Source: Opitutus sp. GAS368 (GTDB lineage Bacteria; Verrucomicrobiota; Verrucomicrobiia; Opitutales; Opitutaceae). From it: DNA of 64,000 nucleotides. The notes beneath the pieces were generated by a model, which was not told the origin of the DNA, searched no databases, and was given only the letters and a program-made list of their open reading frames with translations. Positions 1 through 9,084 of the stretch are shown here, piece after piece; the stretch's first letter is position 1; every line of letters begins with the position of its first letter. The stretch is from NCBI RefSeq assembly GCF_900104925.1, contig NZ_LT629735.1:2959001-3023000 (forward strand), in the 5' to 3' direction. The translations under genes and the position numbers were made by a program.

Positions 1-1449
1 GTGTGGATGACCACCGAGTCCACCCTCGGCCAGTCGTTCTCCGTCGTGATCCCCGAAGTCGACGAGGCCCGCGCCAAGCAAAGCATCAGCGAGGCGCTCG
101 CGCCGGAAATCCAGTCGGGCGACCTGCGGATCGAGCCGGTGCTCTCGCCGGTGACGCTCGTCACGCTGGTCGGCGAGAACATGGGCGCCCAGCCGAACGT
201 GGCGGGCAAGTTCCTCAATTCGATCGGCGCGGCGGGCATCCCGGTGCGCGCCGTGGCACAGGGTGCGTCGGCCCGCAGCATCTCGTGCGTGGTGGACGCC
301 GACCAGACGGCGACCGCAGTGCGCACGGTGCACGGCGCCTTCAACCTCGCGCACACCCAGCTCAGCGTGCTCCTGCTCGGCAAGGGCGTGGTGGGTGGCA
401 GCCTCCTCAAGCAGATCGACCGGCAGAACCAGGCGCTCGGCCGCGAGCACGACGTGCAGGTGCGGCTGGTCGGCATCGGCTCGAGCAAGGGGGCGCTTTA
501 CGACGCCGAGGGCCTGCCGCCGCTCGAGGCCATCGCCGCGCTCGAGAAGGCGCTCGCCACGGGGAAGGCCGTCAAGGACGCCAGCTCCCTGCTCAAGAAA
601 CTCTCGCAACTGCCCAATCCCGTGCTCGTGGACTGCTCGGCCGCGGCCGGCATGGAAAAGATCTACCGGGCGGCCTTCGAGCACGGCATCAACGTCGTGT
701 CGGCCAACAAGCAGCCGCTCGCGCTGCCGCAGCCGGAGCGCGTGGCGCTGCTGGCCGCGGCGCGGAAGAATTTCCGCGCCTACCACTACGAGACAACCGT
801 CGGGGCGGCGCTGCCGGTCATCGAGACGTTGAAGAACCTCGTCCGCACCGGCGACCACGTCATCACCATCGAGGGCGCGTTCTCCGGCACGCTGGGCTTC
901 CTGTGCGAACGGCTGGTGCAGGGCGACGCCCTGTCGGCCGCGGTGCGCCAGGCCAAGGAGCTCGGCTACACCGAGCCGCACCCGCGCGACGACCTCTCGG
1001 GCCTCGATGTGGCGCGCAAGGCCGTCATCCTCGCCCGTGAGCTTGGCCTGCTGGTCGAGCTGGGCGACGTGGCCCTCGAGCCGTTCGTGCCGGCGGAGAA
1101 CCTGCGCGAAGACGACCCGGAGAAATTCCTGCAGTCGCTGGCGAAGCTTGATGCCAAGGTCGCGGCGCGCGTCGCGGCGAGCATGAAGCAGGGCAAGCAG
1201 CCGCGCTACCTGGCGCGCATCACGCCCGGCGCCGAGGGGCCGAAGGTGACCGTCGGCCCGATTGACGTCGATGCCTCCCATCCGGCGGCGTCGTTGCGCG
1301 GGTCGGAGGCCTTCGTGGCGTTTCATACCGAGCGCTACCGCCAATATCCGATGGTTGTGCGCGGGGCAGGCGCGGGAGGGGAAGTGACCGCGGCCGGCGT
1401 GCTGGCGGATATCCTCCGTCTCGCCCAGAACATGCGCGGCCGGCGGTGA
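1..1449 (+). CDS. thrA: Homoserine dehydrogenase half of a bifunctional aspartokinase/homoserine dehydrogenase (5' end outside window)
   Basis: The frame is open at base 1 and ends at TGA 1447-1449, giving 482 visible residues. The first ~115 residues look like an ACT-type regulatory region (segment VTLVGENMGAQPNVAGKFL). A Rossmann motif follows (LLLGKGVVGGSLL), then the homoserine dehydrogenase catalytic part with ANKQPLA and a conserved lysine in GLDVARKAVILARELG. An ACT region directly before the dehydrogenase is the ThrA/MetL fusion layout; the aspartokinase domain would lie upstream. The enzyme reduces aspartate semialdehyde to homoserine, feeding threonine and hence isoleucine, which fits the ilv/leu genes downstream. 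A monofunctional Hom with its ACT domain at the N-terminus cannot be excluded but would be unusual. Confidence 0.88.
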   Translation: MWMTTESTLGQSFSVVIPEVDEARAKQSISEALAPEIQSGDLRIEPVLSPVTLVTLVGENMGAQPNVAGKFLNSIGAAGIPVRAVAQGASARSISCVVDADQTATAVRTVHGAFNLAHTQLSVLLLGKGVVGGSLLKQIDRQNQALGREHDVQVRLVGIGSSKGALYDAEGLPPLEAIAALEKALATGKAVKDASSLLKKLSQLPNPVLVDCSAAAGMEKIYRAAFEHGINVVSANKQPLALPQPERVALLAAARKNFRAYHYETTVGAALPVIETLKNLVRTGDHVITIEGAFSGTLGFLCERLVQGDALSAAVRQAKELGYTEPHPRDDLSGLDVARKAVILARELGLLVELGDVALEPFVPAENLREDDPEKFLQSLAKLDAKVAARVAASMKQGKQPRYLARITPGAEGPKVTVGPIDVDASHPAASLRGSEAFVAFHTERYRQYPMVVRGAGAGGEVTAAGVLADILRLAQNMRGRR

Positions 1450-1624: not shown

Positions 1625-1653
1625 TTGACAGCGCTGGGGCCGGTTAACAACTT
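1625..1653 (+). promoter_or_regulatory. Weak candidate promoter for the ilv leader
   Basis: TTGACA at 1625-1630 matches the -35 consensus exactly, but 17 bases downstream there is only a poor -10 (CAACTT 1648-1653). If used, transcription would start only a few bases before the leader ATG at 1667. An alternative is a start further upstream near GATAAT 1597-1602, which lacks a well-spaced -35. Confidence 0.3.
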
Positions 1654-1666
1654 CTGGCCCGTTCCC

Positions 1667-1765
1667 ATGTTCAACGTCGCCCTTATTGTGCTTATTACCG
1701 TCGTCCTGGCTCTGGCCACGGACCCGAATACACATGGGCGGCTCGCAACAGCCAAAAGCTCCTAA
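1667..1765 (+). CDS. Branched-chain amino acid leader peptide of the ilv operon (32 aa)
   Basis: A 32-codon ORF runs from ATG 1667 to TAA 1763-1765. Residues 4-16 are VALIVLITVVLAL: eleven of the thirteen are Val, Leu or Ile. The tail is hydrophilic (TDPNTHGRLATAKSS). Enterobacterial IlvL has the same length and layout: a run of regulatory Val/Leu/Ile codons followed by a short polar tail. The ORF precedes a rho-independent terminator and then ilvD at 1910. I see no convincing Shine-Dalgarno, so translation may depend on a start close to the 5' end. The role as a sensor of charged branched-chain tRNAs is inferred from composition and context; the peptide itself probably has no function. Confidence 0.8.
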   Translation: MFNVALIVLITVVLALATDPNTHGRLATAKSS

Positions 1766-1815
1766 GAGACAAAAAACTCGAAACAGGAAGCCGCCCACCA
1801 AGGGGCGGCTTTTTT
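1736..1815 (+). promoter_or_regulatory. Attenuator: mutually exclusive antiterminator and terminator before ilvD
   Basis: GGGCGGCT at 1736-1743, inside the leader ORF, is identical to the 3' arm of the terminator (1803-1810). The terminator 5' arm AGCCGCCC (1789-1796) can therefore pair with either copy, forming an antiterminator with 1736-1743 or the terminator with 1803-1810. A ribosome stalled on the Val/Leu/Ile codons (1676-1714) would leave 1736-1743 free and favour read-through into ilvD. I found only weak helices sequestering 1736-1743 in the fed state (for example GGCT 1740-1743 with AGCC 1750-1753), so that part of the model is incomplete. Confidence 0.72.
1788..1815 (+). terminator. 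Rho-independent terminator of the ilv leader
   Basis: The 9-bp stem pairs AAGCCGCCC (1788-1796) with GGGCGGCTT (1803-1811), with a six-base loop and a T-run 1810-1815. It lies 95 bp upstream of ilvD and can be displaced by the antiterminator pairing described for 1736-1815. Confidence 0.88.
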
Positions 1816-1909: not shown

Positions 1910-3580
1910 ATGAATTCCGGCAAACGCCACAGCCACCTTGTCACCGACGGCCCGAGCCGGGCGCCCGCCCGCGCCATGATGAAGGCCATCGGGTTTACCG
2001 ATGCCGACCTGGCCAAGCCGTTGATCGGCATCGCCAACACCTGGACCGAGATCGGGCCCTGCAATTTCCACCTCCGCGCCCTCGCCGAGCACGTCAAGGC
2101 GGGCGTCCGCGCCGCCGGCGGCACCCCGCTGGAGTTCAACACCGTCTCCATCTCCGACGGCATCACGATGGGCACCGAGGGCATGAAGACCTCGCTCATC
2201 AGCCGCGAGCTCATCGCCGACTCCATCGAGCTCGTCGCCCGCGGCAACAGCCTCGACGGCCTCGTCTGCCTTTCCGCCTGCGACAAGACCAACCCCGGCG
2301 TCATGATGGCGCTGGCCCGCCTGGACATCCCGGGCCTCGCGCTCTACGGCGGCTCGATCGACCACGGCCACCACAACGGCAAGGCGCTCACTGTGCAGGA
2401 CGTCTTCGAGGCGGTCGGTGCGTTCACCGCCGGCAAGATCGACGCGAAGGAATTCCGTTGCGTCGAGAACGCCGCCTGCCCGACGGCCGGCGCGTGCGGC
2501 GGCCAGTTCACCGCCAACACCATGGCGACGATCATGGAGGCCATCGGCATCTCGCCCGCCGGCCTCAACGGCATCCCGGCCACGGCCGAGGAAAAGAACA
2601 AGGCCGCGTTCCGCTGTGGCGAGATCGTGATGGACCTCGTCCGCGCGGACCTGAAGCCCTCGCAGATCATGACGCGGAAGGCCTTCGAAAATGCCGTCGT
2701 CTCGGTCGCGGCCTCGGGCGGCTCGACCAACGCCGTGTTGCACCTGCTCGCGCTCGCGAAGGAAGCCAATGTTTCGCTCAAGATCGACGAGTTCGACACC
2801 ATCAGCGCGAAGACCCCGACCATCGCCACGCTCAAGCCCGGCGGCCTCTATACGGCCGTCGAGATGCACAAGGCCGGCGGCATCTCGCTGCTGCTCCGCC
2901 GTCTGCTCGAGGGCGGCTACCTGAACAAGGAGTGCGTGACCGTCACCGGCCGCACGATCGCCGAGGACGTGAAGGGCGCGTTCGAGGCGCCCGGCCAGCA
3001 GGTCATCCGGCCGACCGACAAGGCCTTCAAGCCCACCGGCGGGCTCGTCATCCTTCGCGGCAACCTGGCCGAGGAGGGCGGCGTGCTCAAGGTCGCCGGC
3101 AGCTCGCGCGAAAAACTCAAGGGTCCGGCGCGCGTCTTCAATTGCGAGGAGGATGCCATGGCCGCGGCCAACGCGCAGCAGATCAAGGCCGGCGATGTCG
3201 TCGTCATCCGCTACGAGGGCCCCAAGGGCGGCCCCGGCATGCGCGAAATGCTCGGCGTGACCGGCGCGCTGGCGGGGCAGGGGCTCGCCGACTCCGTGGC
3301 GCTGCTCACCGACGGCCGCTTCTCCGGCGCAACGCGCGGCTTCTCCATCGGCCACGTCGCCCCCGAGGCGTTCGTGGGCGGCCTGATCGCCTTCGTGCAG
3401 GAGGGCGACACCATCGAGATCGATGTCCCGGCGCGCAAACTGCACGTCGAGATCGCCCCCGCCGAGCTGGCCCGCCGCCAGGCCGGCTGGAAGGCACCCG
3501 CCCCGCGCTACGCGCGCGGCGTCATGGCCAAGTATGCCAACACCGTGTCGTCCGCTTCCGAGGGCGCCGTCACCACCTGA
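1910..3580 (+). CDS. ilvD: Dihydroxy-acid dehydratase
   Basis: 556 residues, typical for IlvD. It dehydrates 2,3-dihydroxyisovalerate and 2,3-dihydroxy-3-methylvalerate to the 2-keto acids of valine and isoleucine synthesis. The iron-sulfur cysteines expected in IlvD/Edd enzymes are visible: Cys51 in GPCNFH, Cys124 in SACDKTNPG and Cys196 in [10 protein letters not shown]. The [11 protein letters not shown] segment is also present. ATG 1910 is the first start after the attenuator terminator. The gene opens the ilvD-ilvB-ilvN-ilvC-leuA-cimA-leuB run, 37 bp ahead of ilvB, and should be under control of the leader. Confidence 0.96.
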
Positions 3581-3617: not shown

Positions 3618-5480
3618 ATGAAACTCACCGGCGCAGAAATCATTTGGGAATGCTTACAGCGCGAAGGCGTTGACGTCGTCTTCGGCTATCCGGGCGGCGC
3701 GATCCTGCCGACCTACGACGCGATGACGAAATATCCGAAGATCCACCATGTGCTCGTGCGCCACGAACAGGGCGCCACGCACATGGCGGACGGCTACGCC
3801 CGCGCCAGCGGCAAGGTCGGTGTCGCCATCGCGACCTCGGGCCCCGGCGCGACCAACATGGTCACCGGCATCGCCACCGCCATGATGGACTCCTCGCCCA
3901 TCGTGTGCATCACCGGCCAGGTCGGCTCCAAGGCGATCGGCACCGACGCGTTCCAGGAGACGGACGTGACCGGCGTCACGCTGCCGATCACCAAGCACAA
4001 TTACCTCGTCACGAAGCCCGGCGATGTCGCCCGCGCCATCCGCGAGGCGTTCTACATCGCCAAGAGCGGCCGCCCGGGCCCCGTGCTCGTGGACATCACC
4101 AAGGACGCGCAGCAGCTCACCGCCGAGTTCGACTGGGAGGCCGCCGCGCCGCGCCTGCCGGGCTACCGCCCGAGCTACCACGCCCCGGCGTCGGAGTTCG
4201 CGCGCGCCGCCGAGCTCATCAATGCCGCCAAGCGGCCGCTCATCTTCGCGGGGCAGGGCGTCCTCAAGTCCGGCACGACCGCCGAGGTGCTCAAGCTCGC
4301 CAAGACCGCGGGCATCCCGATCACCACGACGCTGCTCGGCATCGGCGCGATCCCCGCGTCGTCCGAGTTCAACCTCGGCATGATGGGCATGCACGGCGAG
4401 GCCTGGGTCAACCAGGCCATCCAGCAGGCCGACCTGCTGATCGCCCTCGGCATGCGCTTCGACGACCGTGTGACCGGCAACCTCAAGACCTACGCGCTCA
4501 ATGCGAAGAAGATCCACGTCGATATCGACCCGACCGAAATCAACAAGAACGTCCCGGTGGACGTCGCCCTCATCGGCGATCTCCGCGAGGTGCTGACCCT
4601 CATCCAGCCGCAGGTGCAGAAGGCCGACCACACCGAGTGGTGGGCCACGATCAACGCCTTCCGCGGCGATTCCGCCGTGCGCGACATCCAGAGCCTGCCC
4701 GACAGCGGCCACCTCTACGCCGCGCATGTCATCAACGACATCTGGCGCCTCACGCAGAAGCGCGACACCATCGTCGTCACCGACGTCGGCCAGCACCAGA
4801 TGTGGGAGGCCCAGTATTTCCGCCACGAGAAGCCCCGCTCGCTCATCACCTCCGGCGGCCTCGGCACGATGGGCTTCGCGCTCCCCGCGGCCATCGGCGC
4901 CAAGTTCGCCTGCCCCGACAAGGACGTGTGGGTGGTCGTCGGCGACGGCGGCTTCCAGATGACCTCCTGCGAACTGGCCACGGCCGAGCAGGAAGGGATC
5001 AAGGTCAACGTCGCGATCATCAACAACGCCTTCCTCGGCATGGTGCGCCAGTGGCAGGAGTTCTTCTACGACAAGCGCTACGCCGCCACGCCGATGACCG
5101 GCCCGAATTTTGTGAAGCTCGCCGAGGCCTACCGTCTCACCGGCTTCCTGTGCGACAAGCGCTCCGACGTTAAGACGACCGTGGAGAAGACCCTCGCGGC
5201 CAAGGGCACCGTCGTCATCGACTTCGTCGTCGAGAAGGAGGACACGGTGTTCCCGATGGTCCCCGCCGGCGCCGATCTCGACAAGATGATCCGCCGTCCG
5301 AAGCAGGACGTGATGCTCGAGTCCGGTTCCGACAAGGACTGGGAGATGCCGGCGTCCGCGCTGCCGAACGTCTTCGTCGAGGCGAAAGCCGAGGCCAAGG
5401 CCCTCAACGGCCGCGGCCAGACCGCCAAGAAGCCGGCGAAGGCGCCGGCCCGCAAGATCGCCAAAACATCCCGCCGCTAA
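3618..5480 (+). CDS. ilvB: Acetolactate synthase large subunit
   Basis: 620 residues from ATG 3618, with AAGGGA 5 bp upstream. The in-frame region upstream overlaps ilvD and does not match the family. This ThDP- and FAD-dependent enzyme condenses two pyruvates, or pyruvate with 2-oxobutyrate. The catalytic glutamate is Glu50 in VRHEQGATHM. A ThDP-binding GDG-to-NN motif spans about residues 440-470 (VVGDGGFQMTS to AIINN). The FAD-domain segment GMMGMHGEAW is present. The last ~30 residues form a Lys/Ala/Arg-rich tail (TAKKPAKAPARKIAKTSRR) that the catalytic fold does not need. The regulatory subunit gene follows after 12 bp. Confidence 0.96.
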   Translation: MKLTGAEIIWECLQREGVDVVFGYPGGAILPTYDAMTKYPKIHHVLVRHEQGATHMADGYARASGKVGVAIATSGPGATNMVTGIATAMMDSSPIVCITGQVGSKAIGTDAFQETDVTGVTLPITKHNYLVTKPGDVARAIREAFYIAKSGRPGPVLVDITKDAQQLTAEFDWEAAAPRLPGYRPSYHAPASEFARAAELINAAKRPLIFAGQGVLKSGTTAEVLKLAKTAGIPITTTLLGIGAIPASSEFNLGMMGMHGEAWVNQAIQQADLLIALGMRFDDRVTGNLKTYALNAKKIHVDIDPTEINKNVPVDVALIGDLREVLTLIQPQVQKADHTEWWATINAFRGDSAVRDIQSLPDSGHLYAAHVINDIWRLTQKRDTIVVTDVGQHQMWEAQYFRHEKPRSLITSGGLGTMGFALPAAIGAKFACPDKDVWVVVGDGGFQMTSCELATAEQEGIKVNVAIINNAFLGMVRQWQEFFYDKRYAATPMTGPNFVKLAEAYRLTGFLCDKRSDVKTTVEKTLAAKGTVVIDFVVEKEDTVFPMVPAGADLDKMIRRPKQDVMLESGSDKDWEMPASALPNVFVEAKAEAKALNGRGQTAKKPAKAPARKIAKTSRR

Positions 5481-5492
5481 CCCAACCCTCCC

Positions 5493-6056
5493 ATGGCCAA
5501 ACATACGCTCATCGCCTACGTGGAAGACGTGCCCGGCGTCCTGAACCGGGTCGCGTCGCTTTTCCGCCGCCGCAACTTCAACATCGACTCGCTCACGGTC
5601 GGCCGCACCGAGCAGCCGGGCGTGTCGCGCCTCACGGTCGTGGTCGACGCCACCGAGGCCGGCGCCCGCATCGTCGAGGCCAACCTCTACAAGCTGGTCA
5701 ACGTCCTCCGCGTCGACGACCTCACCCACAAGCCGTCGCTCTTTCGCGAGCTCGGCCTGGTCAAGGTCAAGGTCACCAACCAGACGCGGGCCGAGGTGCT
5801 GCAGCTGACCGATGTCTTCCGCGCCCGCGTCGTCGACGTGGACGAGGCGACGCTCGTCATCGAGGTCACCGGCACGCCGGAGAAGATCGGCAAGTTCGAG
5901 ATGGTCCTGCGTCCCTACGGCATCGTCGAGATCGTCCGCACCGGCGCCGTCGCGATGGCGCGCGGCCACGAGCTGCTCTCGGCCGCACCGCCGCTGGTCC
6001 GCACCACCGCGGATGACCACCATCCCGACGCCGCCAGCCTCTCCATGTCCGTTTAA
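5493..6056 (+). CDS. ilvN: Acetolactate synthase small (regulatory) subunit
   Basis: 187 residues, slightly longer than usual (~160-175) because of an acidic, His-containing C-terminal tail. The N-terminal ACT domain (about residues 4-75) has the typical IlvN opening HTLIAYVEDVPGVLNRVASL followed by FNIDSLTVG. The second domain covers about residues 80-165. The ACT domain normally binds valine for feedback inhibition of the large subunit encoded immediately upstream. The ATG is 12 bp after the ilvB stop, so the two are almost certainly co-translated. Confidence 0.95.
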   Translation: MAKHTLIAYVEDVPGVLNRVASLFRRRNFNIDSLTVGRTEQPGVSRLTVVVDATEAGARIVEANLYKLVNVLRVDDLTHKPSLFRELGLVKVKVTNQTRAEVLQLTDVFRARVVDVDEATLVIEVTGTPEKIGKFEMVLRPYGIVEIVRTGAVAMARGHELLSAAPPLVRTTADDHHPDAASLSMSV

Positions 6057-6164: not shown

Positions 6165-7223
<1,059 letters not shown>

Positions 7224-7265: not shown

Positions 7266-7433
7266 ATGACCAGCCGCACCCAGTCCCGCTTCCTCAACGC
7301 CTCCATCGAGGCGCTGAATCTGCGTGGCTTGGGCGCGACGGGCCTGCGACTGCGACTTAGTCGGGGGCTATCGGCTGCTTTCTCTGCCCTGCGCAAGGGA
7401 AGCACCGGCGAGCTCCTGTCCCTGTCGTCCTGA
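7266..7433 (+). CDS. Leucine-rich leader ORF before leuA (55 aa)
   Basis: ATG 7266 to TGA 7431-7433 encodes 55 residues with 12 leucines, including a GLRLRLSRGLSAAFSAL core. The stop lies 40 bp before the leuA ATG (7474). Composition and position suggest a leucine-responsive leader peptide, comparable in principle to LeuL. Unlike the ilv leader, I find no stem with a T-run after it. CGACTTAGTCG at about 7359 and CCCTGCGCAAGGG are the clearest small hairpins. Control could act through Rho or leuA translation, or the ORF could be a chance frame. The inference rests on leucine content and context. Confidence 0.55.
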   Translation: MTSRTQSRFLNASIEALNLRGLGATGLRLRLSRGLSAAFSALRKGSTGELLSLSS

Positions 7434-7473
7434 TCGTTTCAATCAACAGTCCGCAAAAACACTTTTACTTTCC

Positions 7474-9084
7474 ATGAAATCTTCCTCCGCCAATTACGTT
7501 CGTATCTTCGACACCAGCCTCCGCGACGGCGAGCAGGCCCCCGGTGCTTCCATGACCTCGGCTGAAAAGCTCGAGGTCGCCCGCGCGCTCACCCGCCTCG
7601 GCGTCGACGTCATCGAGGCCGGCTTCCCGGCCGCCTCGCCCGACGACCTCGCGGCGGTGCAGGCCATCGCCGCTGAGATCGGCCAGACATCCATCGAGGG
7701 CCGCCCGCAGGCCCAACCGCCGATCATCTGCGGCCTGGCCCGCTGCACGAAGAACGACATCGACGCGGCCTGGCAGGGCGTCAAGGGCGCCAAGCACCCG
7801 CGTATCCACACCTTCCTCGCGACCAGCGATCTCCACCTCAAGCACAAGCTCCGCATGTCGCGCGAGGAGATGACCGCCCGCGCCGTCGAGATGGTCGCCT
7901 ACGCCCGTTCGCTCTGCAAGGACGTCGAGTTCTCGCCGGAGGACGCCGGCCGCAGCGACCCGGAGTTCCTCCACAAGGTGCTCGCCGCCGTCATCAAGGC
8001 CGGCGCCACCACGCTCAATATCCCGGACACCGTCGGCTACACCATGCCCGACGAGTTCGGGGCGCTGATCGAGGGCATCATCAAGCACACGCCCGGCGCC
8101 AAGGACGTGATCATCTCCGTGCACTGCCACGACGATCTCGGCCTGGCGGTCGCCAATTCGCTCGCCGGCCTCCGCGCCGGCGCACGCCAGGCGGAGGTCA
8201 CGGTCAACGGCATCGGCGAGCGCGCGGGCAACGCGTCGCTCGAGGAGGTGGTCATGGCCATCCGCACCCGCGGCGCGAAGATCGGCCTCCAGACCGGCGT
8301 GGACGCCACCCAGCTCTGCCGCATCAGCAAGCTCGTCTCCCGCAGCACCAGCTATCCCGTGCCGCCCAACAAGGCCATCGTCGGCGCCAACGCCTTCGCG
8401 CACGAGTCCGGCATCCACCAGGACGGCATGATCAAGAACGCCGAGACCTATGAGATCATGAAGCCGCAGGATGTCGGCGCGACGCACACCATGCTCGTGC
8501 TCGGCAAGCATTCCGGCCGCGCGGCCTTTTCCAAGCGCCTCACCGAGCTCGGCTACCCGCTCGAGGGCGACGCGCTGCTCAAGGCCTTCAACGAGTTCAA
8601 GAAGCTCGCCGACCGCAAGAAGAGCGTCCTCGACGCCGACCTCATCGCGCTCGCCTCCGACGAGCGCACCACCGTGCCCGAGCTCTGGGCGCTGGATTCC
8701 CTCCAGGTCATGTGCGGCACCACCGGCATGCCCACCGCCAGCGTCCGCCTCCGCGATCCCGACGGCAAGATCCGCAGTGCGGCCGCCCTCGGCACCGGTC
8801 CGGTCGACGCCGCCTACAAGGCGATCAACGGCATCGTCCAGCTGCCGGTCGAACTGCTCGAGTTCGGCATCAGCGCCGTCACCGAAGGCGTCGACGCCCT
8901 CGCCGAGGCCACCGTCCGTGTCCGCCACGAGGAGCAGCGCTCCTCGCACGGCCACGGCGCGGACAGCGACATCGTCGTCGCCGCGGCCAAGGCTTACATC
9001 GCCTCGCTCAACCACGTGCTGTCGCGCCAGTCCAGCGGCCGCGTCCAGCACTCGCAGAGCGCGCCCACCGAAGTTCCCCGCTGA
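7474..9084 (+). CDS. leuA: 2-Isopropylmalate synthase
   Basis: 536 residues from ATG 7474; the in-frame region upstream overlaps the leader and is not conserved. It condenses acetyl-CoA with 2-oxoisovalerate, the first committed step of leucine synthesis. The HMGL-like TIM barrel begins with FDTSLRDGEQAPG (Arg17, Asp18). The metal-binding HCHDDLGLAVANS and the NGIGERAGNASLEE signature follow. After a subdomain containing AHESGIHQDGM, the C-terminal leucine-binding regulatory domain covers about residues 400-520. Seven bases separate its stop from the ATG of the homologous cimA, so the pair probably arose by an old duplication. Confidence 0.95.
   Translation: MKSSSANYVRIFDTSLRDGEQAPGASMTSAEKLEVARALTRLGVDVIEAGFPAASPDDLAAVQAIAAEIGQTSIEGRPQAQPPIICGLARCTKNDIDAAWQGVKGAKHPRIHTFLATSDLHLKHKLRMSREEMTARAVEMVAYARSLCKDVEFSPEDAGRSDPEFLHKVLAAVIKAGATTLNIPDTVGYTMPDEFGALIEGIIKHTPGAKDVIISVHCHDDLGLAVANSLAGLRAGARQAEVTVNGIGERAGNASLEEVVMAIRTRGAKIGLQTGVDATQLCRISKLVSRSTSYPVPPNKAIVGANAFAHESGIHQDGMIKNAETYEIMKPQDVGATHTMLVLGKHSGRAAFSKRLTELGYPLEGDALLKAFNEFKKLADRKKSVLDADLIALASDERTTVPELWALDSLQVMCGTTGMPTASVRLRDPDGKIRSAAALGTGPVDAAYKAINGIVQLPVELLEFGISAVTEGVDALAEATVRVRHEEQRSSHGHGADSDIVVAAAKAYIASLNHVLSRQSSGRVQHSQSAPTEVPR

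Follow-up and report, generated by a model that had tools for sequence, protein, structure and literature searches.

A conserved leader with the layout of a ribosome-mediated attenuator before the ilvD-ilvB-ilvH-ilvC operon of Opitutus sp. GAS368 and its relatives

The genome of Opitutus sp. GAS368 is a single contig of 4.15 Mb, and the window analysed here is a stretch of 64,000 nucleotides within it. Close to the start of the window lies an operon for branched-chain amino acid (BCAA) synthesis in the order ilvD-ilvB-ilvH-ilvC, followed by an ORF that contains leuA (Table 1). The true leuA start should lie inside this ORF, since the match begins only at residue 55. A short leader ORF and a predicted terminator precede ilvD, and a homoserine dehydrogenase gene lies upstream of the leader. 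The closest IlvD relative, among the best 80 of 131, belongs to a Lacunisphaera sp. (94%).

Table 1. Features of the leader region and operon in window coordinates, with leaders found at other loci.
Feature	Position	Strand	Remark
Probable -35 box TTGACA	1625..1630	+	TTGAC conserved in position
Possible -10 box CAACTT, weak	1648..1653	+	by eye in group 1 rows
Leader peptide ORF, 32 codons, MFNVALIVLITVVLALATDPNTHGRLATAKSS	1667..1765	+	
Control region (codons 4-16) with ten codons for Val, Leu or Ile	1676..1714	+	
GTCGCCC, potential partner of B; candidate anti-antiterminator of the window	1676..1682	+	folds (one the centroid)
Leader hairpin, 5' arm and upper part (region 1), Thr11 through Val12-Leu14	1698..1723	+	
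B element GGGCGGCT (region 2); partner of either region 1 or C	1736..1743	+	invariant in 20/20 group 1 loci
UCCU, pairs with AGGA 1785-1788 as the inner helix of the antiterminator	1760..1763	+	paired in 91.3% of cells (alignment A4); fold
Small hairpin GAG/CTC right after the stop codon, antiterminator apex	1766..1779	+	fold; by eye in most aligned rows
Predicted intrinsic terminator, hairpin C:D with its T run	1788..1815	+	
C element AGCCGCCC (region 3); terminator 5' arm, antiterminator 3' arm	1789..1796	+	
D element GGGCGGCT (region 4)	1803..1810	+	
Second short ORF, 20 codons	1837..1899	+	ends 10 nt 5' of ilvD ATG
ilvD, dihydroxy-acid dehydratase, first structural gene	1910..3580	+	
ilvB, acetolactate synthase large subunit	3618..5480	+	
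ilvH, acetolactate synthase small subunit	5493..6056	+	
ilvC, ketol-acid reductoisomerase	6213..7223	+	
ORF containing leuA, 2-isopropylmalate synthase	7324..9084	+	
Phe/Tyr leader in the window's own genome (L171)	G000:C1:2153100-2156200, about 417-573		
Phe/Tyr-leader loci	L171, L156-L158, L163, L164, L166-L168, L170		
Anaerolineales ilvD leader loci	L023, L025-L028, L030, L033		

The first-pass annotation of this DNA correctly placed a 32-codon ORF at 1667, followed by a 9-bp terminator whose stem (1788-1796/1803-1811) and T run (1810-1815) are present. It was also right that GGGCGGCT at 1736-1743 repeats the terminator 3' arm at 1803-1810. Its count of eleven Val, Leu or Ile residues within codons 4-16 needs correction: there are ten, the eleventh being Leu26. 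The annotation further proposed that the terminator 5' arm could build an antiterminator instead, and this is supported by the 8-bp B:C pairing, invariant in 20/20 group 1 loci (alignment A4, defined below), and by folding of 1725-1799, which gave this antiterminator. The fold of 1725-1799 has -22.2 kcal/mol (z -4.28, 0/200 shuffles as stable). Antiterminator and terminator are mutually exclusive because both use C.

Conservation was followed in two sets of loci. An ilvD search in named genomes, of which the best 80 of 131 relatives were kept, contained 23 Verrucomicrobiota; with the window these make up the 24-locus set. For codons and geometry we used 31 loci, that is, these 24 and 7 of 30 covariance-model loci, the other 23 of which repeat the window or contigs already included (a further strong match, in G203, was left out). 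The 24 loci split into 16 like the window (...VALITVVLALLATDPNTHGRLA..., group 1) and 8 like Didemnitutus/Opitutus (...IIIVVVILLTPNTGRLSHT, group 2); alignments A4 and A5 hold 20 group 1 loci and 11 group 2 loci, respectively. The first-pass annotation had made its reading depend on conservation in relatives, and conservation extends to the leader as well as to the pairings. In 24/24 loci there is a leader ORF, 32-34 codons long, with a Val/Leu/Ile block, together with B near the leader end (GGGCGGC in 23, GGGCGAG in L009) and, by sequence, a predicted terminator (GCCGCC/GGGCGG) between leader and ilvD. Leader ORFs with codons for the end-product amino acids are likewise read from sequence in the 31-locus set, their translation being predicted. 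The anatomy and conservation of the element are thus established, and the conserved leader, B, C, D and pairings support the enterobacterial ilv logic that the first-pass annotation had recognized.

Of 252 genomes of the family, a covariance model finds the element (E <=2e-17) in 32. These belong to three genera, with 20 from the window's genus (where one further genome lacks a match), 11 from a second and 1 from a third. In a 387-genome sample of the phylum there was no match below 1e-7 outside the family except in G278; weaker matches there, at 1.7e-5 or worse, were left uncounted, and both model searches used strict filters by which weak matches are lost. The G278 match (L132), the best outside the family, was taken as chance because no ilv gene lies behind it and it falls at the end of a different gene that a terminator follows. 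Within the 4.15-Mb genome the pattern GGGCGG-N38-68-GCCGCC-N3-18-GGCGGYTTT occurs once (control 0). In the window alone the B:C complementarity reaches only a shuffle P of 0.008, so it is conservation that carries the case; there is no covariation in group 1 because B and C never vary there. In group 2 the terminator pairs are kept in 100% of cells (A5).

Codon use in the leaders is skewed. Across the 31 leaders Ile is ATT in 78/91 and Leu is CTT in 70/182 cases; the four operon genes have ATT at 2% and CTT at 3%, and 38 window ORFs, picked by length and composition, have 7% and 6%. In the window's leader, ATT and CTT make up 4/7 of the Ile/Leu codons vs 156/2358 (Fisher P 6e-4). Since ATT and ATC are read by one shared tRNA, the ATT bias could reflect either slow decoding or an open leader RNA. 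Strong codon bias is also described for attenuators, where passages of PMC1183508 tie it to sensitivity.

Transcription probably begins just before the leader. TTGAC is found 39-50 nt 5' of the leader ATG in 24/24 loci, and the promoter assignment depends on this conservation because a standard promoter scan of the window returned no sigma-70 site. Given this spacing, a start downstream of 1765 is unlikely, and the 5' UTR of the leader is probably very short (~4-15 nt), which would leave no space for a Shine-Dalgarno sequence; none was seen before the leader ORF. In the literature on the Corynebacterium ilvBNC attenuator, the title of a cited reference likewise reports a leader peptide formed without a ribosome binding site. 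By eye, a TGTCATAA motif recurs ~14-20 nt 5' of TTGACA in several loci and is absent in the window; it is possibly an activator site or a part of the promoter.

How a translating ribosome would act on these pairings was examined with an assumed footprint of 15 nt upstream and 13 nt downstream of the A site. In group 1 the stop codon starts 20 nt after the 7-nt B in 20/20 loci; therefore, under this footprint, a ribosome at the stop codon leaves B uncovered, 5 nt behind it. In group 2 the distance is 11 nt in 9/11 loci (5 in L009, 14 in L022), and the same footprint puts a ribosome on the stop codon over 1-10 nt of B in 11/11 loci (4 nt in nine). On Val/Leu/Ile codons more than 9 nt before B a ribosome would never cover B (31/31 loci); one Ile or Leu codon lying 9 nt before B in each of L011, L014, L019 and L121 was left out of the stall count. 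For the RNA downstream of a stall the mean P(B:C) is 0.96 and 0.97, with a lowest single value of 0.16 (L013). With the ribosome at the stop P(C:D) is 0.94-1.00, a value close to given because the downstream RNA alone was folded. At equilibrium without a ribosome the mean P(B:C) is 0.80 and 0.91 in the two groups and 0.10 in the window. That is, B:C forms without a ribosome in most loci, so shut-off in the absence of translation is not predicted generally, and only the order of folding would keep B:C off.

What hides B when the leader is fully translated was the piece missing from the first-pass annotation, which saw no clear helix over 1736-1743. Candidates now exist in two forms, neither proven. 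One is a leader hairpin (1698-1710/1715-1723 plus 1737-1741), predicted from 16 group 1 sequences and counted on the 20 of A4, where 96.8% of cells are paired and 28.8-47.5% when the structure is slid. Three of its pairs changed on both sides, a small number of compensatory changes in related sequences. None of 500 shuffles was as high in paired cells and 64/500 reached the same number of pair types, controls that are weakened by relatedness and by how the structure was obtained. The stability of the hairpin region does not exceed that of shuffles (mean z -1.0 for group 1 and -1.4 for group 2). For B behind a ribosome at the stop in group 1, the probability of being paired is 0.71-1.00. The other form is GUCGCCC (1676-1682), which pairs with B in folds of the window; the pairing holds in 89.3% of A4 cells, without covariation, and is broken in several loci, so it was rejected as a universal sequestering helix. 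Group 2 has GUCGUC as a possible partner of B (98.5% of cells, A5).

Taken as a whole, the leader very probably attenuates transcription of the ilvD-ilvB-ilvH-ilvC(-leuA) operon by way of a translating ribosome; we infer stalling, termination and induction from the sequence. Transcription would begin a few bases 5' of the leader ORF, and a ribosome would start on the leader. With ample charged Val, Leu and Ile tRNA the ribosome would reach the stop codon. In group 1, B would then lie ~5 nt behind it and could fold back into the leader hairpin; for the Didemnitutus-like loci, the ribosome would overlap the end of B. With B hidden either way, C would pair with D and transcription would end near 1815. 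If Val, Leu or Ile were scarce, the ribosome would stall in codons 4-16 and leave B free (stalls on Val12-Leu14 would additionally break the leader hairpin); free B would pair with C, and polymerase would continue into ilvD. The comparative series thus suggests two ways of closing the switch, by a hairpin behind the ribosome or by the ribosome over B. If true, the model also implies that these bacteria couple translation to transcription.

The same layout appears before other genes. Among weaker matches of the covariance model within the family Opitutaceae, ten loci, including L171 from the same genome as the window (Table 1), have a Phe/Tyr-rich leader with a matching B/terminator arrangement ahead of a gene that begins like DAHP synthase; the L171 gene carries the Pfam DAHP synthase domain and scores below the cut-offs of the NCBIfam DAHP synthase models. 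L160/L225 has a Val/Leu/Ile leader before ilvB. In L162 an Ile-rich leader stands before a PALP-family gene (Pfam), a probable ilvA, and its B:C pairing TCAGGGC:GCCCTGA keeps the layout in different letters. Scanning the DNA before ilvB at 80 loci (30 + 20 + 30, some genomes twice) added leaders with Val runs and terminators in L252, L254 and L239, with L212 and L223 as candidates, all from other Verrucomicrobiota; L217 and L203 were considered and not counted. The leader amino acids fit the gene downstream: Phe/Tyr with aroF, Ile with the probable ilvA, Val runs with ilvB. Among 14 leaders of all kinds, B:C complementarity exceeds shuffles in 7 (P<0.05, uncorrected) and does not in L225, L252, L254, L239, L212, L223 and L159 (P 0.056-0.80). 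As a separate observation, leaders of the type TTSK..VVVILF or TPW.AT.KAI with the same terminator design (L154, L155, L172, L159, L161, L165, L169) stand before a protein of ~105 aa, which matches DUF6538 just below the cut-off in one case and nothing in another.

Between terminator and ilvD lies a second short ORF. An ATG ORF of 15-30 codons ending at -13 to +8 of the ilvD ATG is present in 21/24 loci, compared with 1.44 expected from shuffles that ignore relatedness; among the exceptions L014 and L020 have a TTG start, and the ORF of L019 ends earlier. This ORF may couple its translation to that of ilvD, before which no Shine-Dalgarno sequence was seen by eye. In several groups of organisms leader genes peak 10-11 bp before genes, and reinitiation has been proposed (PMC4833913); the main text of that paper does not name Verrucomicrobia. 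In many group 1 loci the second ORF carries the motif MTQT..THxSPCR..FGSVA and ends 10-13 nt before, or overlaps, the ilvD ATG. Inside it, a CTGCCG/CGGTAG hairpin (1869-1889) seems, by eye, to be compensated in relatives (TGTTG/CAACA in L008).

Could the leader be something simpler? Its Val/Leu/Ile block resembles a single membrane helix and the hairpin follows the stop codon, as would be expected of a small hydrophobic membrane protein with an ordinary terminator, belonging either to this ORF or to the homoserine dehydrogenase gene upstream. Codons GGG CGG CTC of B, however, show no variation in 20/20 group 1 loci, synonymous third positions included, whereas adjacent codons vary; such freezing of synonymous positions, and the same layout before aroF and the probable ilvA with other amino acids, argue against a membrane protein. 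Nor does the terminator keep company with one upstream gene, which is thrA-like in L002, L003 and L007 and not seen in the flanks analysed for L009, L016, L018 and L022. We consider this explanation quite unlikely.

Still less probable is a leader that binds a ligand or tRNA, as a riboswitch or T-box does, and in which the reading frame is incidental. Overlapping terminators and antiterminators are indeed common in such leaders, but the frame, start, stop and amino-acid content are all kept among relatives, and no Rfam 15 family reached its gathering score, either in 1400-2000 of the window, where Phe_leader came closest among leaders (23.2 bits vs 55), or in seven related loci, a tRNA gene in L016 excepted. 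A leader acting mainly on ilvD translation through the second ORF, with the terminator of minor importance, would account for the conserved position of that ORF; yet in every one of the 24 loci the two ORFs are separated by a terminator hairpin and its T run, and we give this account as little credence as the riboswitch. Attenuation by a translating ribosome remains the preferred reading.

The mechanism itself would be a known one. Lopatovskaya 2010, which is said to treat attenuation across bacteria and is cited by both PMC10272879 and PMC4833913, may already list such leaders; our searches of open-access literature found no description of attenuation or leader peptides in Verrucomicrobia, Opitut- or Chloroflexi, and in broader open-access searches none of the best 15-20 matches listed treats such leaders there, as judged by title or start of abstract. 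As far as that literature goes, we therefore see a known mechanism in a new lineage, with the classic attenuator well supported, if unproven. If true, classic attenuation extends to Verrucomicrobiota and Chloroflexota. The likeness to the attenuators of enterobacterial ilvGMEDA, ilvBN and leu (mentioned in PMC1183508), compared here by description, lies in a leader rich in the operon's end-product amino acids, the 1:2, 2:3, 3:4 logic and biased control codons; the element here differs in that it probably lacks a Shine-Dalgarno sequence and probably has a very short 5' UTR, in ilvD as first gene and in the second short ORF. The Corynebacterium ilvBNC attenuator (ilvB-II motif) shares, as described in PMC10272879 and PMC11857589, a BCAA-rich uORF, antiantiterminator, antiterminator and terminator; it is likened by layout and belongs to another phylum with another gene order. 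The ilvB-OMG and Leptospira ilvB motifs are predicted BCAA-rich uORFs before ilv genes of other lineages; they are tied to ilvB, and ilvB-OMG is placed in ‘various bacterial phyla’ (PMC10272879). These motifs may overlap with the lineages here. By description, the uORFC-13-1 motif of Acholeplasma, from yet another phylum, resembles our Phe/Tyr leaders in its Phe-coding uORF and terminator before aroF (PMC8632094).

Leaders of this kind reach into Chloroflexota. Among 57 ilvD loci of other lineages (within the best 80 of 131), seven have a leader with at least 8 Val/Leu/Ile in 10 codons, and all are Anaerolineales/Anaerolineae, out of 11 Chloroflexota with sufficient upstream DNA; Chloroflexota outside the clade joined to the window's (L031, L032, L034) gave no such leader in the scan. 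The relatives are mostly metagenome assemblies. In an IlvD tree of 45 rows the window type (13 rows) forms one clade (100/100) that adjoins 8 Anaerolineales on a joint branch (100/99), and 8 IlvD from other Opitutaceae genera are placed far off. Since the tree joins both lineages, operon and attenuator may have moved between the phyla, so that a regulatory leader appears to cross phyla together with its operon. This fits a single origin of the attenuator with transfer of operon and leader, of which we infer the direction and the common leader origin. We would go further only tentatively, with slightly more doubt than conviction: the BCAA operon may have carried the attenuator along from one to the other of Chloroflexota and Opitutaceae, with a change of antiterminator register, and Opitutaceae may run a set of ribosome-sensing switches (ilvD, ilvB, ilvA, aroF, small protein) on nearly leaderless leader mRNAs, with the second short ORF coupling translation to ilvD.

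The Anaerolineales leaders stand before a homologous operon (gene order ilvD-ilvB-ilvH in all of the six loci examined out of these seven, 53-76% identity) and share a similar leader length and composition and a GCCGCCC terminator. In these leaders the partner of B is the end of C next to the loop, and B does not copy D as it does in the window. By eye, this B:C match runs over 7 bp in 7/7 loci, as GGTTAGG:CCTAACC in four and GGTTGGG:CCCAACC in three, with one compensated position.
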